Source of the DNA: a virus
DNA: 64,000 nucleotides
IMG/VR virus record: IMGVR_UViG_3300035145_003993
Span: 147,365 to 211,364 of that record
Reading direction: 5' to 3' (one strand)
This document shows, piece after piece, positions 533-49,723 of the stretch (the first letter of the stretch is position 1; every line of letters starts with the position of its first letter). The translations under genes were made by a program, and so were the position numbers. The notes under the pieces were generated by a model that worked only from the letters and a program-made list of their open reading frames with translations, ran no database searches and was not told where the DNA came from.

Positions 533-2164
533 TTAATACATATCATCTGATAGTTGAACTAATTGAACTCCTCCATGACCGTCATTACTATTTAAAACAA
601 TACACCCTACTGATATTAGACTATTACATACACTAACTGCGTTTGATATTGCAGTTGCAGTAACTTTTTGTGGATCAATAATTCCTTCATCAATCATATC
701 AACATACGATTCAGTACGAACATCATATCCATAATTCCAATCTCTATTGTTTTTTATCATTTCAATAATATAATCAACTGGTTTATCTCCATTTTGCAAA
801 ATCTTTTTCAATGGAGACATACATGCGTCAGAAACAATTTTTGAAACAGTGCTATCTAGCAAGGATTCTTCTTTGCTTTCTTCTAAAAGATTTATTCCTG
901 CTCTTGCCAAAGCAATCCCACCACCTGGCAAGAATCCACTTTCAATAGCAGCTTTCGTTGCATGAAGAGCATCATCGATTCTATCTACTAATTCTAATAA
1001 CTCAGATTCTGTATGAGCTCCAATTGAAAGAACAGCAACAATACCTTTATTAATAATAAGCCTTTGTTTATAAAAGACTTCATCTTCCTTTGAAAGAGTT
1101 TTATCTTCTAATTTTTTCTCAACAGCCTTCGAAATTTCATCAGAGTTTTCACAAGAAGCACATTCAACAAAAAGAGTTGAATTATGATTTGTTTCGATCT
1201 TTTTAGAATTCCCTAAGTCTGAAAGGAGAACATTAGACATTTCTCTTTCATCTAAATCATAGAAAACTTTTGTTCCTAAAGCTTTAGCGAGATCATTTAA
1301 AATTTGATTTCTTTTTTCACCATAAAATGGAGATCTAACTGCACAAACTTGCAAAGTACCTTTTGAAACATTAGCTAACAAAGATTGAATTACTTCTTGT
1401 TCATAGTCATTTGCAATAATAAATAAAGATTTTCCAGTTTGATGTATTTTTTCTAAAATCGGAAGAATTTGTGAAAGACTATTTAATTTACAACTTAGGA
1501 TTAAAATTAAAGGATCATCTAAAACTGTTTTTGATTTTTCATTGTCATTAATAAAATAAGGTGAAACATATCCACGATCAATTTTAACACCACGAACTAA
1601 TTTAAGCTCTGTATTTGTAGTTTTAGATTTTTCGACTGTAACTAGTCCAGAAGAACCTACTTCTGACATTGCGTTAGCAATCAAGTTACCAATATATTCG
1701 TCACCGTTAGCACTAATTGTTGCAACTTGCCTTATTTCTTCATTAGAAGAAACTTTCTTTGATTTTTTAGATAATATTTCAACAACATCAGAAACCTTTT
1801 TATTTAAGTAAGAAGTGATTTCTGATGGTGATCCTATTCCTGTTTGCAAAGCTTGAGATGCTCTAAAATATAATTCTTTAGCTAAAACAGTTGAAGTTGT
1901 ACTTCCATCACCCGCTACAGTTGCTGTATTTTCGCTAGCTTGTTTTAAAAGTTTTGCGCCAAGATCTTCAACTCTATTTTGTAGAACAATACTTTTAGCT
2001 ACTGTTGCACCATCTTTAGTTAAATGAGGAGGTTCGTTATTTTTTTCTATTAATACTAATTTACCTCTTGGTCCCATTGTGATTGAAACAGCATCACAAA
2101 GTTTTTTTACTCCACTTTTTAGATGATTTTGTGCTTCTTCATCAAAGTATATTAAGTCTGACAT
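533..2164 (-). CDS. groEL: GroEL-type chaperonin (Hsp60)
   Basis: Group I chaperonin of 543 aa, near the usual 540-550. Equatorial nucleotide-binding motifs are intact: ITMGPRGKL near residues 28-35, TKDGATVAKSI (49-59), AGDGSTTSTVLA (85-95), and the ATPase aspartate of DDALHATKAAIESG (Asp398) followed by PGGGIAL. The apical domain is clear but divergent. The C-terminus lacks the Gly-Gly-Met tail of bacterial GroEL. No GroES homologue is visible here, so it either uses the host co-chaperonin or works without one, as proposed for some jumbo-phage chaperonins. It probably folds phage capsid or replication proteins. It follows the 72-aa gene by 9 bp. Confidence 0.96.
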   Translation of the reverse strand: MSDLIYFDEEAQNHLKSGVKKLCDAVSITMGPRGKLVLIEKNNEPPHLTKDGATVAKSIVLQNRVEDLGAKLLKQASENTATVAGDGSTTSTVLAKELYFRASQALQTGIGSPSEITSYLNKKVSDVVEILSKKSKKVSSNEEIRQVATISANGDEYIGNLIANAMSEVGSSGLVTVEKSKTTNTELKLVRGVKIDRGYVSPYFINDNEKSKTVLDDPLILILSCKLNSLSQILPILEKIHQTGKSLFIIANDYEQEVIQSLLANVSKGTLQVCAVRSPFYGEKRNQILNDLAKALGTKVFYDLDEREMSNVLLSDLGNSKKIETNHNSTLFVECASCENSDEISKAVEKKLEDKTLSKEDEVFYKQRLIINKGIVAVLSIGAHTESELLELVDRIDDALHATKAAIESGFLPGGGIALARAGINLLEESKEESLLDSTVSKIVSDACMSPLKKILQNGDKPVDYIIEMIKNNRDWNYGYDVRTESYVDMIDEGIIDPQKVTATAISNAVSVCNSLISVGCIVLNSNDGHGGVQLVQLSDDMY

Positions 2165-19791: not shown

Positions 19792-20001
19792 ATGTACCAA
19801 ATTTTAGAAAATTATATACAACTTGTATTTGAAAACGAAAAAAATAAAAACAAAACGTTTAAAGATATACTTAATAGTTTAAAAAATAGTCAAAATCCTA
19901 AAAAGGTACTAAGAAATACAGATCCTATAGAAAGAAATACAGATCAAATAGGATTTGACCAATTAATTAAAAAATCTAGTAATTCTAATCAAACGCGTTA
20001 A
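19792..20001 (+). CDS. hypothetical 69-aa protein
   Basis: Plus-strand gene with a good AAAGGAAAA ribosome site. The N-terminal MYQILENYIQLVFENEKNK resembles the first residues of the HAD protein at 15912 and of the protein at 37562. The remainder is polar with two RNTD repeats. Its end overlaps the convergent dnaE stop by 17 bp. Function unknown. Confidence 0.65.
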   Translation: MYQILENYIQLVFENEKNKNKTFKDILNSLKNSQNPKKVLRNTDPIERNTDQIGFDQLIKKSSNSNQTR

Positions 20002-23000
20002 TCTTTTTAAGCTTAGCTAAACTTGATGACATACCCCAGTTAACATCATTACTAATATCAGCCAACCAAGTTGTAAATTCAATTTCACCTTCCATATCTC
20101 CCCATACTCGAAGCCATCCACTTCGATTATCAATATCGACGCATTTCCATCTCATAAATGATTTACCGTTTTTAGTTGTTTTTCTAATAACTTCTGTAAC
20201 AGTAAACCATCCAATTCCACGCTCACCTTTTGGTATATCAAAAATACTATTGATTTGCTTCTGTTTTAGTTTTTTAACTAAGCTTGGTGGAAACAATAAA
20301 TCGTCATTTGCATCATTACTGAGTTCAAAATAGTTTTTAATTTTAGTACTTCTTGACCAATCACTAACAACTCTGTATTGTGAGATTAACTTTTCGACAA
20401 TTGGAATGATTTCTTCACCATTTTTATTTGCTTTTTTAATAGCAGTTTTTGTCATTCCAAAGCTTCCTTTCTTTAAAATCATATAATTATCCAAGATTAA
20501 ATCATGCATTTGTTTGTGATTGTCTAGTGTTCCATCTTGAAATTCTTGGAGTGACTTAAATGCTTCCATCTTTGTTAGTGATGAAAAAGCTGTTTTATTC
20601 ATTTTTGAATGTTTCCATTCTCCTTCTTTATTGTAAAAAAGATCTTGTAAATTATTATATGGTCTATTTACAAATATTTCTTCAACAGCTTTGTCACCTA
20701 CTCCTTTAAGAGATGTCAACGGAGGAACAAACGATTTTAAATCTTCTGAATATTCCCATTGAGATCCTGAGTGATTTATATCAATTGCTGATATGTCATA
20801 TCCTAGTGCCTTAATTTCTGCAATTACTTTGGACATTCCTTTAGGATTACCATTTTCTGATTGTAAAACAGTTGCTAGCCAGTCTGTTTCGTAGTGTGTA
20901 TGAAGCCACGCAGCGTAATATGAGTCGATTGCATAAGAAACAGCATGACTTTTATTGAAACCGTAAACAGCAAAACCTTCTATTTCTTCCCAAAGTTTTT
21001 TAGATATATGTTCGGGTACATCATTAATTTCTTTTGCACCTTTAATAAACTTTTCTCTTGCAATTGTTTTTTCATCTTTTTTATTTCCCATTGTTGCGAG
21101 ATTATTCTTAACAAGGGTTTTTCTCAGCTTATCAGCTTCACCTGGATCAAAACCTGATAGTTTTTGTGCAAGTAACATAAATTGCTCTTGAAATACAACG
21201 TAAGAAAATGTTGGTCCTAAAACTTCTTCGATAATCGGATGATCGTATTTAATTTGTTCTGCGTTTTGTTTAGATTTAACATATTTTTTATGAACATTAG
21301 CTTTAAGAGGTCCAGGACGATAAATAGCAGTTAAAGCTGCTAATTCTTCAATACTTTCTGGTTTAGCTTCTAATGAAAAGTTTCTAGCTCCTGTATTTGT
21401 AAATTGGAATATTCCTACAAATCTTCCATCATGATATACATGCTTCCAGACATCTTGATCATTTTGTTCGTGAAATCTACAATTTAAATGTTTATCAAAG
21501 AATTTTTTAGCATCACTAAATTGTGGATTATTATTACCCTCCTTTTTAAGGATTCTATAAATACAATTTTCAATATCTTTTAATAAGGATAAACCTAAGA
21601 AATCAAATTTAATAAAACCATTATCTTCTAAGTTTCTAAAATTTAATCCTTCTGACCATGGTGTTTGTAATTCTCCTCTTACACCTACGATAGGCATAGT
21701 TGTTTCTAAATGTTCAGGATCAGCTACTAACACACCCCCTGCATGACGACCAATTGCTCTATTCTGCATAAACAAAGAAGCAATATGAGTTTCAACTTCA
21801 GGATATCTTTCCATAAAATCTTTATATTCTGGAGAATACTTTTTACAATCTTCATGCTTAAGAACAAAAACAGATTTTTCTTGATCGTCACCTTTTGCCA
21901 TTTTCATAACTTGATCGTGAAGAGGACCAGTTACTTTATTTACTTCATCATACGGAATATCATAAAACTTAGATATATCTTTAATAAGAGACTTAAGCTT
22001 TAAAGTATTAAAGTTAGAAACAGGAATAACAGCATCGTTTCCATATAATTCTTTTGCAGCATTAATTAACTCATCACGATCACCAGCATCTGTATCAATA
22101 TCAGGCCATGAAACCCTATGCCTTCCTAAGAATCTTGCCCAAAGAAGATCGTATGGAAGAGGGTCAACTTGTGTAATGCCTAATAAATAATTAACTAAAG
22201 AGCCAGCTCCTGATCCTCTTCCTGGCCCTAATAAAGTTTTCTTTTCAGCCTTCTTAAAAATTTCATACATCGTAATAAAATATGCTTCGTGACCAAGATA
22301 CTTTATATCTGATAATTCTTCTTTAGCACGATCAACATAAACTTGGTTTGTATGAAAACCATGGCTAACGAGTGAATCTTTAACTAAAGAAGATAAGTGT
22401 TGAAAAGGAGTTTTATTTGGAACGTTTATTGTAGGTAGTTTAACTCCTGTATCAATCCAAGTATCTTCAAATTCATTCCAAACGATATCATGAGTTCGAT
22501 TAATAGCATCACGAACTAATTCTTCATTACCTTTATAAAATTCATAAGTAGGATATGAATCAAGAAATTCTTCCCACATTTGAGAAGCATTTTTTGGATA
22601 TAATTCACACTTAAGATCTTCAAATTCTGGAAGAGAAAGATTATCTCTTTTTCCTAACCAACCAAGTTTTTTATATAATTCTCGAGCTTGCCATTTTTCA
22701 TTTGAAGGGTAATGTGAATCTGCTGTACAAATAAGAGGAATACCTGTTAATTTATGGTGTTCTATAAGATAATCATTAACAGTATGCTGTTTTTCTAATT
22801 TATTAAACTGTAATTCAAGTTTAAAATTGTTTTCTCCAACACAAGAAACAAACCTATCTGTTAGATTTAATAATTCTTTCTGAATTTGTTCACGTGATTG
22901 ATTATGAACTTCACCTCTTAAAATACGATTACTATAAATACCACCAAGGCAGTTGTGCACTAAAATATTGTTAGCAAAAAAATTGTGATTACCTTCAACA

Positions 23001-23080
23001 GTAATGTCGTAAACGTCAGAAGTCTCATCTATTTCTTCAATAATTTCAACTTCAATAAATTTTGTTTGAATGTCTTTCAA
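19985..23080 (-). CDS. dnaE: DNA polymerase III alpha subunit, C-terminal fragment carrying split-intein C half
   Basis: Residues 1-43 are an intein C-terminal half (block F VYDITVEGNHNFFANNI, block G LVHN followed by Cys44). From Cys44 the protein continues as family-C polymerase: rest of the PHP domain with TADSHYPS, catalytic aspartates in WPDIDTDAGD and FIKFDFLGL, finger and beta-binding regions, and an OB-like C-terminus. With the 203 N-terminal residues encoded at 24409-25017, splicing would give an 1191-aa DnaE, the normal length. The start is TTG with AAAAAGGAAT upstream, served by the promoter at 23100-23128. The phage replicative polymerase is thus bacterial-type, with no T4-like family-B polymerase in view. 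Confidence 0.95.
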   Translation of the reverse strand: MKDIQTKFIEVEIIEEIDETSDVYDITVEGNHNFFANNILVHNCLGGIYSNRILRGEVHNQSREQIQKELLNLTDRFVSCVGENNFKLELQFNKLEKQHTVNDYLIEHHKLTGIPLICTADSHYPSNEKWQARELYKKLGWLGKRDNLSLPEFEDLKCELYPKNASQMWEEFLDSYPTYEFYKGNEELVRDAINRTHDIVWNEFEDTWIDTGVKLPTINVPNKTPFQHLSSLVKDSLVSHGFHTNQVYVDRAKEELSDIKYLGHEAYFITMYEIFKKAEKKTLLGPGRGSGAGSLVNYLLGITQVDPLPYDLLWARFLGRHRVSWPDIDTDAGDRDELINAAKELYGNDAVIPVSNFNTLKLKSLIKDISKFYDIPYDEVNKVTGPLHDQVMKMAKGDDQEKSVFVLKHEDCKKYSPEYKDFMERYPEVETHIASLFMQNRAIGRHAGGVLVADPEHLETTMPIVGVRGELQTPWSEGLNFRNLEDNGFIKFDFLGLSLLKDIENCIYRILKKEGNNNPQFSDAKKFFDKHLNCRFHEQNDQDVWKHVYHDGRFVGIFQFTNTGARNFSLEAKPESIEELAALTAIYRPGPLKANVHKKYVKSKQNAEQIKYDHPIIEEVLGPTFSYVVFQEQFMLLAQKLSGFDPGEADKLRKTLVKNNLATMGNKKDEKTIAREKFIKGAKEINDVPEHISKKLWEEIEGFAVYGFNKSHAVSYAIDSYYAAWLHTHYETDWLATVLQSENGNPKGMSKVIAEIKALGYDISAIDINHSGSQWEYSEDLKSFVPPLTSLKGVGDKAVEEIFVNRPYNNLQDLFYNKEGEWKHSKMNKTAFSSLTKMEAFKSLQEFQDGTLDNHKQMHDLILDNYMILKKGSFGMTKTAIKKANKNGEEIIPIVEKLISQYRVVSDWSRSTKIKNYFELSNDANDDLLFPPSLVKKLKQKQINSIFDIPKGERGIGWFTVTEVIRKTTKNGKSFMRWKCVDIDNRSGWLRVWGDMEGEIEFTTWLADISNDVNWGMSSSLAKLKKINAFD
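22952..23080 (-). other. split intein C-terminal half (DnaE)
   Basis: 43 residues ending HN, followed by Cys as the +1 extein residue. Contains the block F/G pattern DITVEGNHNFFANNILVHN. Expected to pair with the N half at 24100-24408 and splice in trans; there is no endonuclease inside either half. Confidence 0.93.
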
Positions 23081-23099
23081 AATTATTCCTTTTTATTAG

Positions 23100-23128
23100 A
23101 ATATAATACAATTAGTTAATATTTACAC
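23100..23128 (-). promoter_or_regulatory. GTGTAAA-N16-TATATT promoter for dnaE C fragment
   Basis: GTGTAAA at 23122-23128 and TATATT at 23100-23105 with exactly 16 bp between. The -35 box lies in the last codons of the homing endonuclease, and the start site would fall just before the AAAAAGGAAT ribosome site of dnaE-C. It makes the second dnaE fragment independent of the first. Confidence 0.75.
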
Positions 23129-24062
23129 TTTCATTAATTAAATCAATTGTATTATCAATTTCATTTTCCCATATAATCAAGTAGTTATAGTTTCTTTTTT
23201 TTGCTATCTTCATTTTGTAAGAATCAGCATTCCAAATATCACCTGCTTTTATTTTTCCTCTTGGGAAATCAAGAATGCTATTTTCATTATATAGAGAAGG
23301 GTGTGCGTGCCAAAATAGACCATGGCATTCAATGATTAAATTAAACTTTGGCAGATAAAAATCATATATGTAACATCTTTTGTTGTATAATAATTCATCT
23401 TTTGTCAAATTAATTCGATATTGAATAGAATAGTCAATGTTATTTTCTCTTAATAATCTTTCAATTCTTTTTTCTGTTTTAGGTTGTGATGTTTTTTTAA
23501 GAGCACCAATTGCACCTTTAACAGCTCTTTCTGAAATTATTGCATTTGCATTATCCTTACTTAATCCTTTCTTAAGCCAAAACTCAATGCAAAATGGAGA
23601 ATTTGATCGTTTATAGTTAGATAAACTTTCTTTTGCATCTTCAATATTTTCCGTTTTTTCTATCCAATACTCTAAAGTTTGTTTTTGGTTGTAAGGTTTA
23701 CCTGACTTTTTTCTAGTTTTAACTGTTCCTTTTTGTCCTTTTAAAGAAGTCTTCAAATAGTAACTTTCAATTTCTTTTATTGAAGTGTTTTTTGGAAATT
23801 TAAACTGACTTCTGAATGCTGTTGAAGTTTTTTGATTATCTACATGAAGCTTAAAACCGATTTTGTCTTTTAAAAGAATAGAAAAAGTTTGCTGTGATAT
23901 ATTTAACTCATTAAAGCATTTTCTATTGTCACGATTAATCATTTGATATAACATTGAAAACGAGTAAAGTTTATTAATAAAACCTTGTATTTCTTCTTTT
24001 GAGTAATAAGAAAAAAGTATTTCTTCTCTAATTTTCCATATATTTGTTTTTTTTGTTTTCAT
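23112..24062 (-). CDS. Vsr-like (EDxHD) homing endonuclease between the two dnaE fragments
   Basis: 316 aa. The C-terminal 100 residues hold IYDFYLPKFNLIIECHGLFW, HAHP, a later KMKIAKK and YLIIWENEI: the very-short-patch-repair endonuclease fold with Asp, Glu, His and Trp in the EDxHD arrangement described for endonucleases inside fractured split-intein genes. The N-terminal part is basic, repeat-like and probably DNA-recognising (NUMOD-like). A strong AGGAGG ribosome site precedes the ATG. Presumably cuts intein-free dnaE alleles at the insertion site and spreads the whole cassette. Confidence 0.88.
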   Translation of the reverse strand: MKTKKTNIWKIREEILFSYYSKEEIQGFINKLYSFSMLYQMINRDNRKCFNELNISQQTFSILLKDKIGFKLHVDNQKTSTAFRSQFKFPKNTSIKEIESYYLKTSLKGQKGTVKTRKKSGKPYNQKQTLEYWIEKTENIEDAKESLSNYKRSNSPFCIEFWLKKGLSKDNANAIISERAVKGAIGALKKTSQPKTEKRIERLLRENNIDYSIQYRINLTKDELLYNKRCYIYDFYLPKFNLIIECHGLFWHAHPSLYNENSILDFPRGKIKAGDIWNADSYKMKIAKKRNYNYLIIWENEIDNTIDLINESVNIN

Positions 24063-24099
24063 TATATTATCCTCCTAGGCACATATTATATATTCTGCT

Positions 24100-24408
24100 T
24101 CAGAGGTTAATATTAATAATTATATCACCTTTAACAATATCTTTTGTATCAATCCATCCTTTGTCTTTAACAAGAACACGATGATCAGGTGTAAGTTTGA
24201 TTTCGTTACCTTCTTTGTCTTTAATTCTCATAAGCTTAGCACCTCCTCGGGTTTTGTCACCCCAGATTACTTTTTTAAATTCAGCTTTGCTAGTATATTC
24301 ATTATAAGAAAGAACTTGGATTTCTTCACCTTTATTAAATCTTTCTACAACTTCTTTAATAGATAGATTTCCAGATGAAGTTTGTAAAGTTGTGTCAGGA
24401 TGAAGACA
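24100..24408 (-). other. split intein N-terminal half (DnaE)
   Basis: 102 residues from Cys204. Block A is CLHPDTTLQT and block B is IKLTPDHRVLV with the catalytic Thr-x-x-His. It ends at a stop codon with no endonuclease domain, as in naturally split inteins. Confidence 0.93.
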
Positions 24409-25017
24409 AGCTGTAGATATGTGTAATCCTTCACCATGTTCTTGAAGCATTTGAAAATCAATACGTGGGTATCTATAAAAACCATATTTATACGATTTTT
24501 TAACTAAAGTAAATAAATTGTGAAGACCTTTTTGGTTTTTTGCTGTAACTACCAAATGATATCTTCTTTTCCACTCATCTTTAAGGATATCAACATTTTT
24601 TGTTTCATCTTCGTCTTCAACAACTAATCCGCCACTTTCATCATCTGCGTCAATATCAACTTTTTCTTTTGATTTCCTTTCAGCAGCAGCGGCAGATTTT
24701 GCGTCTTTTACTGCTTGTTTGTGAGCAGCATATTCTTCAGACCATTGTTGAAGTGAAGGAACAAAATAAAATTCAACTCCATAAATTTGTCTATAATTCC
24801 TTCCTGATTTTTGCATTCTAATTGTATGAGATCTTGCATGAGCAAGACCATTACCGTTACCATGGTCTGTTAGTGCCCATGCATCCATACCCTGAGATTC
24901 AGACAAAACAAAATCAATATGATCAGATGGGTATCCTAATCCATCGAATGTTGAAAACGTGCTGTGTGCATGAAGACCGACAAATCTATCTGGTGGTGTT
25001 ATTAAATCAATAGACAA
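24100..25017 (-). CDS. dnaE: DNA polymerase III alpha subunit, N-terminal fragment carrying split-intein N half
   Basis: Residues 1-203 are the PHP domain start: FVGLHAHSTFS, ALTDHGNGNGL, IYGVEFYF and RRYHLVVTAKN retain PHP metal ligands, so PHP-linked proofreading is conceivable. A charged insert lies at residues 85-125. At HISTA/CLHPDT the sequence switches to an intein N half (102 aa). The host gene resumes at CLGG in the other fragment; SxACLGG is a conserved DnaE stretch, which fixes the junction. The start is TTG with AAAGG upstream; an ATG is absent. Confidence 0.95.
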   Translation of the reverse strand: MSIDLITPPDRFVGLHAHSTFSTFDGLGYPSDHIDFVLSESQGMDAWALTDHGNGNGLAHARSHTIRMQKSGRNYRQIYGVEFYFVPSLQQWSEEYAAHKQAVKDAKSAAAAERKSKEKVDIDADDESGGLVVEDEDETKNVDILKDEWKRRYHLVVTAKNQKGLHNLFTLVKKSYKYGFYRYPRIDFQMLQEHGEGLHISTACLHPDTTLQTSSGNLSIKEVVERFNKGEEIQVLSYNEYTSKAEFKKVIWGDKTRGGAKLMRIKDKEGNEIKLTPDHRVLVKDKGWIDTKDIVKGDIIININL

Positions 25018-25394: not shown

Positions 25395-25493
25395 ATGAAA
25401 ACTAAAGAAATATTAAGAGAATGGAATTTATTTTTAAAAAATATATTGAGACTCTTATTTCTTAAATATTGTATTATACTAATCGTTCAATAA
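25395..25493 (+). CDS. possible 32-aa plus-strand peptide or gene remnant
   Basis: ATG at 25395 with AAGG upstream; reads MKTKEILREWNLFLKN and then a hydrophobic stretch. The start resembles the N-terminus of the 140-aa protein at 36564 (W-x-x-FL). It overlaps the photolyase stop by 15 bp. It may be a remnant of a longer plus-strand gene. Confidence 0.3.
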   Translation: MKTKEILREWNLFLKNILRLLFLKYCIILIVQ

Positions 25494-26657
25494 TTTTAAA
25501 GTTCTTTCTTGATTAAATCTCATAACTTTTCCATATTGTAATTTAAAACTTTCAACACAGTTTACAATATTATTTGGACTTTGAGCATCTTCACAGTGTG
25601 TATTAAAAAAATCAATTAAAGTTTCTAATGATTTTAAACCTCCACCAAGATTCCAATAACATTCTCCTGCGAACCACATTCTAGATCTATTAGGCATCCA
25701 CCTATTTTTAATACACTGTTTTATTTCTTTGTTAAGGTAATCATTTTTTGTATTTCCATTCATAATATCTTTTTTTGATAAAACGGGAGTAAAAGTATTA
25801 TTTAATAAATTGTTATAAGACTTTTCATCTAAAAGTTTTTTTGAAATACTATCTACACTATCTAAAAAACTTATTTCTTTAATTCTACATTTTCTAATAC
25901 AAATTTCTCTAAATGCTAATTGTCTAAGAATAGGTATAATTGGATTATCCTTTTCAATAAACCTTGGAGAAAGTGATAAAACTAAATGTGTTATTACCCT
26001 TGGATCAATTAAACCATGATGTAAAAATTTAGAAAGTTTTGTACTTCCTTCTCTTTCATTTCTTGTTTTATGATAAGATAAAACCTTTTCTTTGAATCTT
26101 TTTAAAATGTTACAAACATTTTTATGAGTTTTCAAAGATAAATTATGATTAATTTTATATAATTCGCCTATACTCCCAAAATCATTTATTTTATTATAAT
26201 TACAAAATATTTCTTCTTTCTTTAGTCTATTTTTTGTCCAATAGATCCATCTACTTTTTGCTGTCATTTTTGTACAAGACTCAATATAAGAGTCAGAATC
26301 GACTTCTTCTACATTAATATTATTAAATTTTAATTTTTCTGAAAAAAGAGGTTTATCGTAATATACTTTTTCGATATTTTCATTTTTACAAAAATCTTCA
26401 ATTAATGCAACAGGATTTTTTGATTTAATTATTTTAAGATTTAAATCATAATTTTCTTTTAATCTGCTTGAAAAATAATTTAATGATTCGTAATAAAATA
26501 GATTATTATTATTTTTATAATAATTTTTATTATTATCATTTAAATAATAATTTGAAATATATACAACACAAATATTTTTATAAGAAGATATAGCTTTTTT
26601 AAAAATAAAACTGTTTGTTCTAAAAGAATGATCAATTATAATTAGACATTTAGACAT
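25479..26657 (-). CDS. photolyase/cryptochrome-family protein
   Basis: 392 aa. The N-terminal Rossmann-like domain starts CLIIIDHSFRTNSF. The C-terminal FAD-domain signatures are GSTKLSKFLHHGLIDPR (residues 204-220), RQLAFREICIRKC (245-257) and WMPNRSRMWFAGECYW (320-335), the counterpart of the family's 'W-x-H-N-R-x-R-M'. The middle is shorter and more divergent than in cellular photolyases. The likely role is light-driven repair of UV dimers in phage DNA; substrate and FAD binding need confirmation. Two tandem GTGTAAA promoters lie directly upstream. Confidence 0.8.
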   Translation of the reverse strand: MSKCLIIIDHSFRTNSFIFKKAISSYKNICVVYISNYYLNDNNKNYYKNNNNLFYYESLNYFSSRLKENYDLNLKIIKSKNPVALIEDFCKNENIEKVYYDKPLFSEKLKFNNINVEEVDSDSYIESCTKMTAKSRWIYWTKNRLKKEEIFCNYNKINDFGSIGELYKINHNLSLKTHKNVCNILKRFKEKVLSYHKTRNEREGSTKLSKFLHHGLIDPRVITHLVLSLSPRFIEKDNPIIPILRQLAFREICIRKCRIKEISFLDSVDSISKKLLDEKSYNNLLNNTFTPVLSKKDIMNGNTKNDYLNKEIKQCIKNRWMPNRSRMWFAGECYWNLGGGLKSLETLIDFFNTHCEDAQSPNNIVNCVESFKLQYGKVMRFNQERTLKLLND

Positions 26658-26772: not shown

Positions 26773-27003
26773 CTAAGTCTCAGATTTAGTTACCCACAGA
26801 CCGTCTTGATTTTCTAAATCCATTGTTTCTCTAGACGATCCATTTAAGTAAACAATTAGACCTTTAACAAAGTAATGATCTTGAATAATTTCTGTAACTA
26901 AACAGTTATTTTTTATCCTTTCACCATAAAAAAATATATCAATCATGTCACCTTCTTTTAACTGTGATACTTCGTGTATTTCATTTTTATAATTACTGGA
27001 CAT
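26773..27003 (-). CDS. hypothetical 76-aa protein
   Basis: Small beta-rich protein: VSQLKEGDMIDIFFYGER, NNCLVTEIIQDHYFVKGLIV. The 'L-K-E-G-D' turn followed by strands suggests an SH3-like barrel. Overlaps the end of the vWA gene by 11 bp. Function unknown. Confidence 0.75.
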   Translation of the reverse strand: MSSNYKNEIHEVSQLKEGDMIDIFFYGERIKNNCLVTEIIQDHYFVKGLIVYLNGSSRETMDLENQDGLWVTKSET

Positions 27004-28174
27004 TGATTTTAGGTTTTCCCCATCTAAGTGTTATTTGTGTATTGTTATTTAACATGTTTGTGCAAATATTAAAAGGTTCTACGTCATAGAATTTTAAAAT
27101 CTTATAAAGATCATCATACAAATAATCTATTCCTTCTTCCAAGATTTGGGTACCATTAAAAACATTTAAATCACCTTCAGCAATTACAGGACCTATCCTA
27201 CACATTATCTCTTCTATAATTGCATTAAATGCTGATTCAACTTGATTTGCATTAACAACGAAAGAGAATTCATTAGGAATTGTATTGAGTGTGTTTCCGC
27301 TTATAGACTGTAGTGCGCTTGTATTTGCATTGTCTACACCTAAAGTATATACAGTAATACAAGGATCTATTGCTGTAGAGTAAATGCAATTGTTATCATT
27401 AATATTTCTTATGTTGTTTTGAACAAAAGACTGAGAAGGCCCTGATCCTTCATTTGGCGATCCATCTGATATTAAGAGAATGTAATAAGACTCGTAGTTT
27501 GTCGTCTGTATTTGTGTCATTGCTTCTTGTAAAGGTGCTATAAAGTTTGTTCCACCTCCCGGACTTCTATTATTAACAATTGAAAGAACAGATTGCTTAT
27601 GCTGTTGATTTTTTCCTATACTTGAAGAAACTATTATATTACTATTGTATAATATAACAGAGTAACTTAAATTAAAATCAGAGTTAACAAATTGACTAAC
27701 TGTATCTCTAAGTTGAACTATTCTGTTTCCACTCATTGAACCACTATAATCTAAAAGCATTATTACAGCTGCATCTATTAAGTCAACGTCATGAACTTCT
27801 TCAGGGACAGTTATTATAACTGACTTGGTAGTTTGTCCGCGTCCTGGGTTATAAGAAGAAGTTATTCCGTATTTTCTATTACAATAGTTTTCAACACTAC
27901 ACTCTAGTCCTAGATCTATACATTGAAAGTTTGGTGTAACGTTAGTTGAAAGTGACGAAGCGCAATTATTTAAAAAATTAGGTGTACAAATTTCTTCAGT
28001 ACTATTTGTCTCAATAATAGAAATTCCTAGATTTACACTACAAGAATCTAAAACTTGTTTTTCTTCCAATATGTTTAAAGATATTCTACCGTATTGTATT
28101 GTTATAAATGCTAAAGTTGATAACACAGCAGACAATAACATAATAGTTAGTGCTGCAAATCCTTTGTTTTTCAT
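26993..28174 (-). CDS. von Willebrand factor A domain protein with prepilin-like N-terminus
   Basis: Residues 1-30 (KNKGFAALTIMLLSAVLSTL) form a short basic lead, a Gly-Phe junction and one hydrophobic helix, as in PilX/TadE-type pseudopilins. The segment at 40-110 has seven cysteines, suggesting an exported, disulfide-bonded domain. Residues 130-330 are a vWA domain with a complete MIDAS: DYSGS (142-146), Thr209 in GGGTN, and Asp237 in ISDGSPNEG. The C-terminal region is beta-rich. vWA domains with pilin-like leads occur in surface adhesins and pilus-tip proteins; in a phage this suggests export to the infected cell's envelope. No other secretion gene is nearby. Confidence 0.85.
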   Translation of the reverse strand: MKNKGFAALTIMLLSAVLSTLAFITIQYGRISLNILEEKQVLDSCSVNLGISIIETNSTEEICTPNFLNNCASSLSTNVTPNFQCIDLGLECSVENYCNRKYGITSSYNPGRGQTTKSVIITVPEEVHDVDLIDAAVIMLLDYSGSMSGNRIVQLRDTVSQFVNSDFNLSYSVILYNSNIIVSSSIGKNQQHKQSVLSIVNNRSPGGGTNFIAPLQEAMTQIQTTNYESYYILLISDGSPNEGSGPSQSFVQNNIRNINDNNCIYSTAIDPCITVYTLGVDNANTSALQSISGNTLNTIPNEFSFVVNANQVESAFNAIIEEIMCRIGPVIAEGDLNVFNGTQILEEGIDYLYDDLYKILKFYDVEPFNICTNMLNNNTQITLRWGKPKINVQ

Positions 28175-28194: not shown

Positions 28195-28223
28195 ATAATA
28201 TAAGGATTTGTTTTAAATTACAA
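28195..28223 (-). promoter_or_regulatory. weak promoter-like site before vWA gene
   Basis: TTGTAAT (28217-28223), 16 bp, TATTAT (28195-28200): same spacing as the GTGTAAA family but with two mismatches in the upstream box. GGAGAGA, the vWA ribosome site, follows. Confidence 0.35.
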
Positions 28224-28988
28224 ATTAGACTTTTTTAGATAAATAAGATGTCTTGTACCATGATAATTTTTATTTTCTATATTATCAATAGTCCAGTAAT
28301 GATTTGTTTTTTTAATGTTTCTATAAAAATCTTTCATTAATAAAACGTCTATATTAACGCCTTGATTTTTTAATATATCAACAGCTAATAAGTTTGAATT
28401 AAATTTTCTATCTCTACGAATAGCCTTTAATTCAACATATTTATCTTCATCAGGATGGTAAAAATCTGGCGTATATTGCTTGTCTCTTCCTGCATAATTT
28501 ACAGTAAAAGTTTTATGTTCATAAATATAAGGCTTATTTGTTGCTTCGCACCATCTTGCATAATCTGCCTCTAATCCTGATTTGAAAAAATAATTACTTG
28601 GTAAATCTCTTCTAAATCCTAATCTTCCATTTGAAGGTATTTCGTGTAAACCACTACTTTGAGCTTTATATTGGCAATCTTTACTACAATATTTAGTAGC
28701 TTGTCCTATTGGCTTTTGATATGATTTTCCACAAAAATTACAATTTAAATCGATTCTTTCATGACGATTTTCTTTTAAATAACATTCTCGTCTACAATAT
28801 TTTTTATCTCTTTTAGCTTTAAATTTATTGTTACAAGAAAGACAATTTTTATAAACATATTTTGAAGAATTTTTGTCTTTACAGACCTTTGAACAAAACT
28901 TTGATGAAGAAGCTCTTGATGCTGGTTTTTTATAAATAGATTTACACTCTTGACACGTTAACTCTACTTGATTACTTTTTCTAGGCAT
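28218..28988 (-). CDS. zinc-knuckle PD-(D/E)XK homing endonuclease, free-standing
   Basis: Residues 1-120 contain repeated Cys-x2-Cys pairs (LTCQECKS, KFCSKVCK, NCLSCNNKFK, KYCRRECY, LNCNFCGKSY, KYCSKDCQ), about three zinc fingers of an MRL/HNH-associated type. Residues 140-205 carry FKSGLEADYARWCE, QYTPDFYHP and YVELKAIRR, matching the PD...ExK nuclease core of phage homing endonucleases. The ATG is preceded by AAGGAGAT. It sits between genes rather than in an intron or intein, so it probably homes as a free-standing element near the fpg/nei and vWA genes. Confidence 0.82.
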   Translation of the reverse strand: MPRKSNQVELTCQECKSIYKKPASRASSSKFCSKVCKDKNSSKYVYKNCLSCNNKFKAKRDKKYCRRECYLKENRHERIDLNCNFCGKSYQKPIGQATKYCSKDCQYKAQSSGLHEIPSNGRLGFRRDLPSNYFFKSGLEADYARWCEATNKPYIYEHKTFTVNYAGRDKQYTPDFYHPDEDKYVELKAIRRDRKFNSNLLAVDILKNQGVNIDVLLMKDFYRNIKKTNHYWTIDNIENKNYHGTRHLIYLKKSNL

Positions 28989-39501: not shown

Positions 39502-40563
39502 TTATCCTTGACAGCTTAAACATTCATCAGGATCAGCGAAATCTTGTAACTTATCTTGCTTAACCTTCTGACTAACCTTTTCAGCTGAAGCTCCTGCGTT
39601 TGTCCTTAGATAATATAATCCTTTTAACTTCTTTTTCCAAGCTCTAATATGTACTGCATTAACATAAGATTTATCAGTACCAGCGGGAAAGAATAAATTA
39701 ACACTTTGACCTTGGCAAATAAATTCTTGTCTATCACCTGCGTGATCTATAATCCATCTTTGATCTAATTCAAATGCTGTTTTAAATACTTCTTTATGCC
39801 AATCTGACATGTATTCAAGGTGTTGAACAGATCCTTCTGCTAAGATAATAGATTTCCATTGTTCATTCATCCAAGATTCAATATCAATTTTTTCTACATT
39901 GTCAGCATACTCTCTTAAAACTTTTTCTAAGTGATGATTTTTCACTAAATAAGAACCTACTCTTGTTCTATGTGTATATGCATTACTTTTCCAAGGTTCA
40001 ATAGATGGTGAAGTCCCTGCAATAATAGAAGAATTAGCATTTGGAGCAATTGCTAATAGATGAGAATTCCTAACTCCGTAACCAGATCCATCAGGACATT
40101 CACCTTTTTTAATCGCCAACTCTTTTGTACGCTGTTTTGCTTTTTCTTTAATTAATGAGAATATATTAATATTTGTTGCTTTTGCAATCCCTGATTCAAA
40201 CGGAATATTTTTTGATTGAAGATAGGAGTGAAATCCCATTGCACCTAAACCAAGTGATCTTTCTCTCATAGCGGAAAATTTTGCTTTGTGCAAATAGTCA
40301 GGAGCATTTTCAATAAAAAATTGTAGGACGTTATCTAAATACTCTATTAAATCTTCAACAATATTTGTGTCTTTCCATTCATCAAACTTTTCAACATTTA
40401 GTGAGCTTAAACAACATACTGCACTTCTTTCAGGAGATGTTGCCAAATGGATCTCATTACAATTGTGAACGAGCATGTTATTTGCAAAAAAATTTTTATT
40501 GTCTTTAACAGTTATGTCAAAAACAGGTTCTTTTGTTTCTCTTTTAATTATTTTTAATCCCAT
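39502..40563 (-). CDS. nrdA: ribonucleotide reductase alpha subunit, C-terminal fragment carrying split-intein C half
   Basis: Residues 1-34 are an intein C half (VFDITVKDNKNFFANNMLVHN). From Cys35 the NrdA sequence runs CNEIHLAT, then SAVCCLSSLNV, the barrel and a C-terminal CLSCQG redox pair. Cys35 aligns with the thiyl-radical cysteine of the N-L-C-x-E motif, so the splicing nucleophile and the radical residue are the same. With residues 1-282 encoded at 41682-42527 the spliced enzyme would have 601 aa and no ATP-cone. A start with AAAGGTAG lies inside the end of the GIY-YIG gene (20-bp overlap). Confidence 0.95.
   Translation of the reverse strand: MGLKIIKRETKEPVFDITVKDNKNFFANNMLVHNCNEIHLATSPERSAVCCLSSLNVEKFDEWKDTNIVEDLIEYLDNVLQFFIENAPDYLHKAKFSAMRERSLGLGAMGFHSYLQSKNIPFESGIAKATNINIFSLIKEKAKQRTKELAIKKGECPDGSGYGVRNSHLLAIAPNANSSIIAGTSPSIEPWKSNAYTHRTRVGSYLVKNHHLEKVLREYADNVEKIDIESWMNEQWKSIILAEGSVQHLEYMSDWHKEVFKTAFELDQRWIIDHAGDRQEFICQGQSVNLFFPAGTDKSYVNAVHIRAWKKKLKGLYYLRTNAGASAEKVSQKVKQDKLQDFADPDECLSCQG
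40462..40563 (-). other. split intein C-terminal half (NrdA)
   Basis: 34 residues, block F/G KNFFANNMLVHN, followed by Cys at +1. Similar in style to, but not the same as, the DnaE C half at 22952-23080. Confidence 0.93.
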
Positions 40564-41302
40564 ATTTTCTACCTTTTATCCATTCTTCACTGTTAAGTGC
40601 ATCGATTTCTTTTTTGCTCATTTGTTTTGAAACTTTAAGTTTTTCGTTAGTGTACCAATTTTTTCCTGATAATGACTTAGAAAGTTTATTATTATGGCTA
40701 TTCGTTCTTTTATATTTAAAATCACTGTCATTTAAGTTATACAAATCTTTCATTGCGTTTACAAAACCTTTTAAGCCCGATCCATATTTTTTAAATCTAA
40801 ATTTTGAATAAGACTTTGGAAAACCATAAACTTCTGAACTATATATTTGCCACTTTCTTTTAGGTAGCTGTCCTTCTTTTTGAAAATAAGTAAAAGCTGA
40901 TTTTAATATTTCTTCATCAGTAAAACCTGTGTATGTTGGATTTTTTTCTCCTGATGTTGCAATAGAATTTTTTAGTCGCCATTCACTATATTTTTCATCA
41001 GGAACTATCCATCCACCATCACCACCCGTAGTCATATTATAACCCTTTTTAAAAGTATCATAATATTCAATGTAATACTTTTCTTTTTCTAAAGCTTCTT
41101 TTTTAGTATAACATTCAAAAATTATTTTAGATACTATATTTTTAGGACCGTATTTTCTAATTGCTTTATAAAAATGTGTATCATGACCTGATTGTGCATT
41201 TGTAATATGTTTGTGTAGTCTTTTTGACAAAGTTAGTCCAGTGTATCCAATGTATGACTTGTTTGTTTGTTTAAAAGTGTGCATGTATATTATATATTTC
41301 AA
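40544..41302 (-). CDS. GIY-YIG homing endonuclease between the two nrdA fragments
   Basis: 252 aa. YIIYMHTFKQTNKSYIGYTG is the GIY-YIG motif, followed by the conserved Arg/His region LHKHITNAQ and the catalytic Glu in ALEKEKYYIEYY, then YNMTTGGDGG. The C-terminal part is basic and probably binds DNA. TTG start with AAGGAG. It is unrelated to the Vsr-like enzyme in dnaE, so two different endonuclease families occupy the same niche. Confidence 0.93.
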   Translation of the reverse strand: MKYIIYMHTFKQTNKSYIGYTGLTLSKRLHKHITNAQSGHDTHFYKAIRKYGPKNIVSKIIFECYTKKEALEKEKYYIEYYDTFKKGYNMTTGGDGGWIVPDEKYSEWRLKNSIATSGEKNPTYTGFTDEEILKSAFTYFQKEGQLPKRKWQIYSSEVYGFPKSYSKFRFKKYGSGLKGFVNAMKDLYNLNDSDFKYKRTNSHNNKLSKSLSGKNWYTNEKLKVSKQMSKKEIDALNSEEWIKGRKYGIKNN

Positions 41303-41360
41303 ACTATCTCCTTATGTTAGTAAATGAATTTCAACATTAAATATACATCTAACAATCAAA

Positions 41361-41681
41361 TTAAGAAAAAACTAATTCATCGTCTTCTTTAAGATCTTTA
41401 GCTTTTACATATCCTCTATTTACAGTATATACTTTGTGATCAGGAGTACAAACAATTTTTTTACCAGTTTCTTCATCTATTATTTCAAGTACTTCTGCAC
41501 TTTTACTAATTAATCCTGCATCAGTAATTTCTTTGTATTCAATTTCTTTTGTATCAATATTATAAGACAACACAAAAATTTCTTTTCCTTCATGAAAAAG
41601 ATCAACAACTTCTTCTAATGATACCTGTGCATTTGGCACATTGTCAATTAACACATCAATCTTCGTATCTCCTGTTAAGCA
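41361..41681 (-). other. split intein N-terminal half (NrdA)
   Basis: 106 residues from Cys283. Block A CLTGDTKIDV, block B KIVCTPDHKVYT, ending NRGYVKAKDLKEDDELVFS at a stop codon. The ending strongly recalls the NRGYVRADEL-type end of the NrdJ-1 split intein, known from environmental phage sequence. Confidence 0.93.
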
Positions 41682-42527
41682 AAGATTTGATCCATGTATC
41701 TTAAGTCCTAAATCTTTTTGATATTGAGGTAAGTGTTTATTTGCTTCTGAAATGAAGTTAATATATGGCTCGCCTGTTCTAAATCTGACTTTTAGTATTC
41801 TTTGCCATAATTCTCTTGCGTCAACTGTGTCTCTTATTGTTTTATCATTAGGATCAATTAAATTCCATTTTTCGCCTTTAGATACTGCTTCCATAAATTC
41901 GTCTGTTACATTTACTGCATTGTTTAAATTAAAACATTTACGATTTACGTCTCCTCCTGTTGGAAGTCGAATACTTAAAAATTCAATAATATCAGGATGA
42001 GAAACATCCATATAAGCTGCATAGCTTCCTTTCCTAGTTTTTCCTTGTCTATAAGCAGTCATATCACTATCTGCAGATTTTAAAAAAGGAATTGGTCCTG
42101 GTGATATTGAAGAATTAGATCTAACTTTAGACCAATGACCTCCTACACCACCACCTTTTACAGACATCCAACGTAATTCATTTGAATGATCTATAAGACC
42201 TTCTAAAGAGTCATCAACATAACTTAAAAAACAAGAAATAGGAAGTCCTAATTCTGTACCACCGGGAACGGGAGCATTAGATAAGATTGGAGAACTAAAC
42301 ATAAACCAACCTTTTGCCGCGTAATTATAAATTCTTTGTGCAAGTGACAAATCATATTTTTTATTTTGAAAATCGTAAGAGAATGCTACAGCTGCCCTTG
42401 CAAAACTTTCTTGAGGAGACTCCTCGTGATCTTGCATATAATAGTCTCTAAGTAATTTTCGTGAAAAATTTGTTAATTTATCGTCATAATCTAAGTTAAT
42501 ACTAATACCATAGCATTCTTTTTTCAT
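41361..42527 (-). CDS. nrdA: ribonucleotide reductase alpha subunit, N-terminal fragment carrying split-intein N half
   Basis: Residues 1-282 are NrdA: FSSPILSNAPVPGG, LPISCFLSYVDDS (first active-site Cys99), WMSVKGGGVGGHWSKVRS and HGSNL at the junction. The allosteric ATP-cone is absent. Residues 283-388 are an intein N half of the NrdJ/NrdA-type. Reduces ribonucleoside diphosphates after trans-splicing with the downstream fragment. Directly follows dut by 14 bp. Confidence 0.95.
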   Translation of the reverse strand: MKKECYGISINLDYDDKLTNFSRKLLRDYYMQDHEESPQESFARAAVAFSYDFQNKKYDLSLAQRIYNYAAKGWFMFSSPILSNAPVPGGTELGLPISCFLSYVDDSLEGLIDHSNELRWMSVKGGGVGGHWSKVRSNSSISPGPIPFLKSADSDMTAYRQGKTRKGSYAAYMDVSHPDIIEFLSIRLPTGGDVNRKCFNLNNAVNVTDEFMEAVSKGEKWNLIDPNDKTIRDTVDARELWQRILKVRFRTGEPYINFISEANKHLPQYQKDLGLKIHGSNLCLTGDTKIDVLIDNVPNAQVSLEEVVDLFHEGKEIFVLSYNIDTKEIEYKEITDAGLISKSAEVLEIIDEETGKKIVCTPDHKVYTVNRGYVKAKDLKEDDELVFS

Positions 42528-48673: not shown

Positions 48674-49723
48674 CTAATCACACTCTGTGTTAAATTGTGA
48701 TATAGACACGGGAAAGTTTCCTAAGTCTTTATCGTTATATCCTTTCATAATTATACTTTTAAATTCATTTACATAGTCTTTTTCAACATCAAAAACTATT
48801 GCGTCATGAATAATGAATATAGGGATTGCTTTATTTAAATCTAAAATATTAGTTATTTCACTAAAATAAAGTAATGCAATATCTACTGCTGATGATTGAA
48901 CGTAATTATTTATTACTACATTCTTTCTTTTTTCATTCAGATTCCAAATTGGTCGACCATAAAAATTTCTTCTAACATTTTGTTTGTCAATTTTTGATGA
49001 TATTTCATATAAATAATCTAATTCAAAATGATCTTTAATAATTTCAAATATTTTAACTGCTTTGTTTGCTGAAATATTTCTAAGGTTTTCATGGCTTGCA
49101 CCATATAGTACAGATATTATTGCTCTTTTAATAATAGACCTGTCTATATCAAAATCTAACATGCTATTAATAGTTTCATATATATCACCATCAATATCTT
49201 TTCCAACTATTTTTAAACAAAATCTTGGTTCTAAATTTTGAAAATCTATACTTAATAGTTTACCATTATTAAACCTAGATTCGAAAATATTTCGACATCT
49301 TTTAGGTAAGACTAAAATATTTGGACTATTATTAACTGTCAATCTTCCAGAAATATTTTTTGAATTATCATAATTTGCTTTTCTTGAAAAGCCATTTCGT
49401 GGTTTAAATTGCTTTAAAACACTAGATATAGTTTGGTTTGTTTCAACAGAGTTAATTGCTTTATAGGCAATTAAATTAACTTTTGGTTTTTGTATTTTAT
49501 CGAATAAGTTAAAATATAAATTTAATTTATCTAAATAATTTTCTTCATCTAAAGAATTTATATGATTTAATAGTTCTTCTTTATGATTAAGAAATTCTTC
49601 TTGCAAATAGTTAGGTAATATTTCTACTTCATCATAATCTTCTGATAATGATGCTAAGAATTTGAAAAAGATTTTAAATTTATTATCATATTCAACATTG
49701 TATATTCTATATATTTTTTCCAT
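48674..49723 (-). CDS. small DNA polymerase I-like (family A) polymerase
   Basis: 349 aa. The polymerase core only, with no 3'-5' or 5'-3' exonuclease domain. Palm: SGRLTVNNSPNILVLPKR, motif A LLSIDFQNLEPR (Asp160), motif B RSIIKRAIISVLYG (Arg195, Lys199, Tyr207), motif C FIIHDAIVF (Asp307). The residue equivalent to E. coli Phe762 is Ile203, and the Glu after the motif C Asp is Ala308. With a full DnaE encoded too, this may be a repair, gap-filling or specialised polymerase. The promoter's -10 ends six bases before the ATG, so the mRNA may be leaderless. Confidence 0.9.
   Translation of the reverse strand: MEKIYRIYNVEYDNKFKIFFKFLASLSEDYDEVEILPNYLQEEFLNHKEELLNHINSLDEENYLDKLNLYFNLFDKIQKPKVNLIAYKAINSVETNQTISSVLKQFKPRNGFSRKANYDNSKNISGRLTVNNSPNILVLPKRCRNIFESRFNNGKLLSIDFQNLEPRFCLKIVGKDIDGDIYETINSMLDFDIDRSIIKRAIISVLYGASHENLRNISANKAVKIFEIIKDHFELDYLYEISSKIDKQNVRRNFYGRPIWNLNEKRKNVVINNYVQSSAVDIALLYFSEITNILDLNKAIPIFIIHDAIVFDVEKDYVNEFKSIIMKGYNDKDLGNFPVSISQFNTECD

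Follow-up and report, generated by a model that had tools for sequence, protein, structure and literature searches.

The 64,000-nt stretch analysed here (the window) forms the end of a 211-kb virus record, IMGVR_UViG_3300035145_003993, from a large uncultivated phage, and contains a dnaE gene, encoding a PolIII-alpha-type replicase, that is broken into pieces (Table 1). An N-terminal DnaE fragment (ExtN) runs directly into the N half of an intein (IntN), whose reading frame is closed by a TGA at 24100-24102. Next comes a free-standing endonuclease gene, preceded by an AGGAGG ribosome site, and then a gene that begins with the intein C half (IntC) and continues into the rest of DnaE (ExtC). IntN and the endonuclease are each followed by a stop, so the dnaE region is not one open reading frame; a continuous intein with an embedded endonuclease was considered and rejected, as no single open frame spans both halves. 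The 203 and 988 extein residues sum to 1191, exactly matching relative L002, whose DnaE is uninterrupted (handles beginning with L denote related viral contigs), and the cassette is a clean insertion between A203 and C204 (STA/CLGG; slashes mark insertion points) of an otherwise continuous protein. Insertion sites could not be placed on an AlphaFold model of the intact protein, its quality being too low. An earlier, sequence-only reading of this DNA had given part lengths of 203, 102, 43 and 988 residues, which proved exact to the residue. Its proposed fractured-gene layout also holds: the host gene lies in two open reading frames, one ending in IntN and the other starting with IntC, with a free-standing Vsr/EDxHD-type gene between them, and the empty alleles, young cassette and purifying selection described below strengthen the case.

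Table 1. Features of the window and of related contigs (L handles), with positions in the respective sequence.
Feature	Sequence	Positions	Strand	Description and evidence
ExtN	window	24409-25017	minus	DnaE residues 1-203, PHP domain, TTG start; PF02811 9e-20, reading frame
IntN	window	24103-24408	minus	102 aa, starts CLHPDT, ends NINL, C1 and TPDH; PF14890 41.0 bits, TIGR01445 52.2 bits
Endonuclease gene	window	23112-24062 including stop (coding 24062-23115)	minus	Free-standing, 316 aa, ATG start, Vsr-like/EDxHD-type; weak sequence similarity to Vsr, modelled fold like 1cw0 and 3r3p, omega 0.12
IntC	window	22952-23080	minus	43 aa, TTG start, block F, ends ILVHN; PF14890 37.7 bits, TIGR01443 33.7 bits
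ExtC	window	19985-22951 including stop (coding 22951-19988)	minus	DnaE residues 204-1191, 988 aa, starts CLGG, polymerase core including PDIDTD; TIGR00594 482 bits, PF07733, PF17657, PF14579
Endonuclease-like gene	window	28218-28988		Free-standing
nrdA N part and intein N half	window	41361-42527		
GIY-YIG endonuclease gene in nrdA	window	40544-41302		
nrdA C part	window	39502-40563		Starts with intein C half
Family-A DNA polymerase-like gene	window	48674-49723		Short, 349 aa; PF00476 1e-11
GroEL-like chaperonin	window	533-2164		Translation, by eye
Photolyase-like protein	window	25479-26657		Translation, by eye
von Willebrand-type protein	window	26993-28174		DYSGSMSG motif; translation, by eye
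DnaE site B	relatives			GPGRG/SGAGS
DnaE site C	relatives			GRHR/(T)SWPDIDTD, at catalytic aspartates
DnaE site D	relatives			QNRS/CGRHAGG
DnaE site E	relatives			Immediately before CFQEQF
DnaE site F	relatives			GFNK/SHAV
dnaE with three split inteins	L012	2662-9572		Sites A, C and D filled
Bypass candidate, 6-nt gap	L001	4055-4140		TCC or TCG, TAG + three bases, TCT; also L004, L008 and others
Bypass candidate, 6-nt gap	L013	5365-5470		As L001
Bypass candidate, 7-nt gap	L024	5400-5500		TCC TGAATGG TCT
Bypass candidate, 7-nt gap	L066	5980-6080		TCG TAAAGTT ACG; landing codon not Ser
Bypass candidate, 8-nt gap	L143	1900-2000		TCG TAATAATA TCA
Bypass candidate, 9-nt gap	L063	2440-2540		TCG TAAATAAAA TCA
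Bypass candidate, 9-nt gap	L132	6975-7085		TCG TGACCTAAA TCG; also L135
Bypass candidate, 35-nt gap	L067	5950-6070		TCG, gap with TAG and 10-bp hairpin, TCG
Truncated dnaE 5' copies	L069	4002-6162		At least one copy of codons 1-21
Truncated dnaE 5' copies	L058	729-6825		As L069
Truncated dnaE 5' copies	L082	4700-5014		As L069
Truncated dnaE 5' copies	L143	800-1000		As L069
Endonuclease before uninterrupted dnaE	L170	6105-7080		5' end MTNILRPPAQFISLHSHSHFSTYDGLG

Both intein halves score above the curated cut-offs of Pfam and NCBIfam intein models: 35.8 bits for Intein_splicing (PF14890, both genes), 24.5 for intein_Nterm (TIGR01445, N gene) and 15.6 for intein_Cterm (TIGR01443, C gene). The splicing residues are complete, comprising C1, TPDH in block B, the D and H of block F (VYDITVEGNHNFFANN), ILVHN in block G and a Cys at +1, a set as expected for a class-1 intein. 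The closest solved intein is NrdJ-1 (8ubs, E 5e-16), which comes from a fractured gene, followed by Spl DnaX and a DNA-polymerase intein; the DnaE intein 7qil is a much weaker match (E 6e-4). By these features the two DnaE halves are very probably joined by a split intein.

Sequence searches with the endonuclease gave weak Vsr matches far under the Vsr cut-off. Its score with TIGR00632, the Vsr mismatch endonuclease model, is 20 bits against a cut-off of 97.85, and we therefore call it Vsr-like, not Vsr proper. The C-terminal domain of the structural model (approximately residues 195-316, with a predicted local distance difference test score, pLDDT, of about 80) has Vsr 1cw0, I-Bth0305I 3r3p and Vsr 1vsr as its best Foldseek matches in the PDB (probability 1.00, E about 0.003-0.006), and the template modelling (TM) score on the target 3r3p is 0.65. 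Alignment with the homologous endonucleases that relatives carry at sites D and E shows D234, E245, W251, H252 and D280 to be invariant. The E of KTEKRIE is kept in five of six endonuclease homologues, and D234, H252 and D280 in all six. Judged by modelled fold and residues, the protein is an EDxHD-type homing endonuclease, in agreement with the sequence-only reading; the match to the catalytic residues of I-Bth0305I was judged at the level of the residue set. Another endonuclease-like gene stands free at 28218-28988, near an Fpg-like gene. It shares 43% identity with the endonucleases that separate the two intein halves in L017 and L019 at dnaE site C, and is possibly a homing gene that has become separated from its intein.

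Five scans of viral contigs yielded 101 distinct related alleles, of which 93 could be scored at the window site (site A). The site is empty, and the gene continuous there, in 91 of them; the remaining two, L001 and L012, carry the same IntN-endonuclease-IntC cassette as the window. All three filled alleles have retained an intact endonuclease gene. In a maximum-likelihood tree built from the extein next to the site, they occupy three places, each beside empty alleles, and well-supported branches force three changes in site occupancy. Between the window and L001, synonymous divergence (dS) is 1.47 and 1.33 in the exteins, compared with 0.28 in IntN, 0.27 in the endonuclease and 0.09 in IntC. 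Omega for the same pair is 0.09, 0.12 and 0.11 in the three cassette parts, respectively; values of about 0.1 indicate that they are kept for function. Third-position identity falls sharply exactly at the splice junctions, so little flanking sequence appears to have moved along with the cassette. By its divergence and distribution, the cassette is a mobile, functional element, sporadic, horizontally acquired and much younger than its flanks.

We consider it highly likely that this phage replicase gene is a fractured gene whose halves are trans-spliced and whose cassette was spread by homing. PHP-IntN and IntC-polymerase would each be translated from their own start; IntN and IntC would then come together in a single HINT fold, and class-1 trans-splicing would yield intact DnaE. 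During co-infection the EDxHD endonuclease would cut the empty PHP site of an intein-free dnaE, and repair of the break would copy the whole cassette into the cut allele. Such spread would be possible because splicing renders the insertion nearly harmless. Several points weigh against this account. Trans-splicing and cleavage are predictions from sequence and a structural model; the endonuclease model is confident in its C-terminal third only, some 195 N-terminal residues being of low confidence; site A is seldom filled; and a search for a co-conversion tract in the cassette flanks of the window and L001 revealed none. The low cassette dS, the scattered filled alleles and the junction-sharp drop in identity nevertheless fit homing despite the absent tract.

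Splicing might not occur at all, the PHP and polymerase fragments acting as a two-chain enzyme in the manner of phage ribonucleotide reductases that are split by a homing-endonuclease gene without an intein and work as separate peptides (PMC10448857). Useless intein tails would be expected to decay, however, and both halves retain all catalytic residues under purifying selection, which makes this alternative very unlikely. We regard it as slightly less probable again that the intein halves have been domesticated as a switch, delaying or conditioning polymerase assembly, with the endonuclease gene a dead remnant. Condition-dependent splicing has been reported in other inteins (PMC7360933), but the endonuclease is intact in the three filled alleles and conserved, and the cassette is recent and sporadic, close relatives doing without it. 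The record is a metagenome contig, and an assembly or sequencing error could in principle have broken one continuous intein gene; L001 and L012, which are independent contigs, repeat both the order of the three genes and their stops, which refutes this and leaves it a negligible probability. A fractured, trans-spliced dnaE therefore remains our preferred explanation.

The dnaE genes of the clade have six split-intein sites in total, site A of the window and five others in relatives (B to F, Table 1), with a free-standing endonuclease gene between the halves at most of these five. The sequence-only reading had named a continuous intein at another dnaE site of close relatives as a sign against its interpretation. 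Relatives bear this out in part, having inteins at other sites; they are additional split inteins, and the window intein stands. L012 fills sites A, C and D with three different split inteins, so its polymerase would be made as four polypeptides. The extein parts (203 + 279 + 120 + 589 residues) again sum to 1191 and align without gaps to the window protein (79%). Mutual identity among the three inteins is low (27-35% for the N halves, 25-37% for the C halves), and cross-pairing may be limited as a result. A search by family of the window's own record found two split inteins and no more, one in dnaE and the other in nrdA. The latter gene, within 39502-42527, is a second fractured gene, and its intein N half is also present in several relatives.

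In about 20 contigs of relatives, but not in the window, the dnaE frame is interrupted near codons 19-21 by a stop between HxH(S/T)xFS and TFDG. The candidate elements comprise a Ser codon, an immediate stop (TAG, TGA or TAA), a gap of 6-35 nt, a second Ser codon (Thr in L066) and an upstream hairpin. A hop of the ribosome from Ser to Ser would give the exact native protein in every type and any frame; L066 would require an imperfect landing. Folding of the 5' codons gives a long hairpin that reaches the take-off codon or stops right next to it (z -3.5 to -6.4 in seven sequences, -1.7 in L066); the same folding of three uninterrupted alleles gave z +0.2 to +0.9. The paired arms vary by type (GAGAAGGTTG/CAACCTTCTC, GAGAACGTTG/CAACGTTCTC), a compensatory change. 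Twelve of the candidate contigs have, immediately upstream of dnaE, an endonuclease gene of a single family (45-100% identical to the L004 member), and in at least seven of these a truncated old dnaE 5' end remains before the endonuclease. The truncated copies upstream of the present 5' end in L069, L058, L082 and L143 look as if insertions had replaced the start of dnaE, more than once in L069 and L058. In L170 the same family lies directly upstream of an uninterrupted 5' end, which may represent a hop-free state. Single types could be served by readthrough, where the gap is 6 or 9 nt, or by a +1 shift, where it is 7 nt, but those with 8- or 35-nt gaps could not; as sole explanations both were rejected, because all three frames are represented among the gaps of 6, 7, 8, 9 and 35 nt. 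PMC5009743 sets out the anatomy of T4 gene 60 and states that in-frame stop hops had no known natural example. The candidates share with gene 60 a take-off codon, an immediate stop, a 5' hairpin, a landing codon and an adjoining endonuclease insertion, and differ in the gap (6-9 or 35 nt instead of 50), the Ser codons, the gene and in being predicted from sequence.

On balance, we lean towards viewing the dnaE of this clade as a battleground of homing elements whose damage would be repaired at two levels: in the protein, through six split-intein sites and, in L012, a polymerase assembled from four polypeptides by three divergent split inteins; and in translation, where endonuclease insertion near codons 19-21 in sister lineages would have led to a hop of 6-35 nt, a widespread natural counterpart of T4 gene 60 that includes in-frame stop hops. 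If so, the bypass candidates turn the single textbook case of T4 gene 60 into a family varying in gap length, frame, stop codon and hairpin, and a natural three-intein, four-polypeptide essential enzyme becomes an in vivo test of intein orthogonality and a source of orthogonal tools. The relatives supply six or more different split inteins within a single protein, making dnaE a rich natural test bed for gene-breaking mobile elements. What the window adds is a natural split intein that interrupts the PHP core of a PolIII-alpha replicase, and dozens of naturally intein-free alleles are available for homing tests.

The window also encodes a short family-A DNA polymerase-like protein, in the same genome as the PolIII-alpha-type dnaE, and several proteins recognised by eye (Table 1). 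No Rfam RNAs were found in the 64 kb.

The cyanobacterial DnaE intein is inserted at Y/CFNKSH, four residues from site F. As the sequence-only reading stated, the window insertion is different, lying at 203/204 with VYGFNKSH intact. Like the cyanobacterial Npu and Ssp split inteins, the window intein would join DnaE in trans; the cyanobacterial halves, however, are encoded far apart, without an endonuclease, and are only distantly related in sequence. Among isolate phages we found none with the window intein in DnaE; matches to Streptomyces phage DnaE that span the IntN region contain no intein on reading and are an artefact of gapped alignment. A pattern search of 84,980 species genomes for bacterial DnaE with an intein ending in VHN at CLxGE, covering that ending and motif only, gave 11 matches, all due to chance. 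Fractured genes were reportedly described by Dassa et al. in 2009 (NAR 37:2560). As far as can be checked, such a gene is new to DnaE, and the site may stand in that original list. Jumbo phages bearing DnaE are already known (PMC7824862, PMC9123017). The fractured PolB of the Pseudomonas jumbo phage MIJ3 likewise has a split intein in a phage replicative polymerase and an endonuclease gene between the halves, but is a family B polymerase with Ser at +1 and an HNH endonuclease (PMC6892783). I-Bth0305I resembles the window endonuclease in catalytic-domain fold and residue set, but is intron-associated (Taylor 2011, via PMC3943268). Split-intein fractured genes accompanied by free-standing endonucleases are known (PMC7090010, PMC3653736, PMC10448857). 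The window locus resembles them in its order of N half, endonuclease gene and C half, its split intein, its EDxHD/Vsr-like endonuclease and its closeness to NrdJ-1, and differs from them in its host gene, dnaE, in its PHP-domain site, and in having relatives with up to three split inteins per gene.
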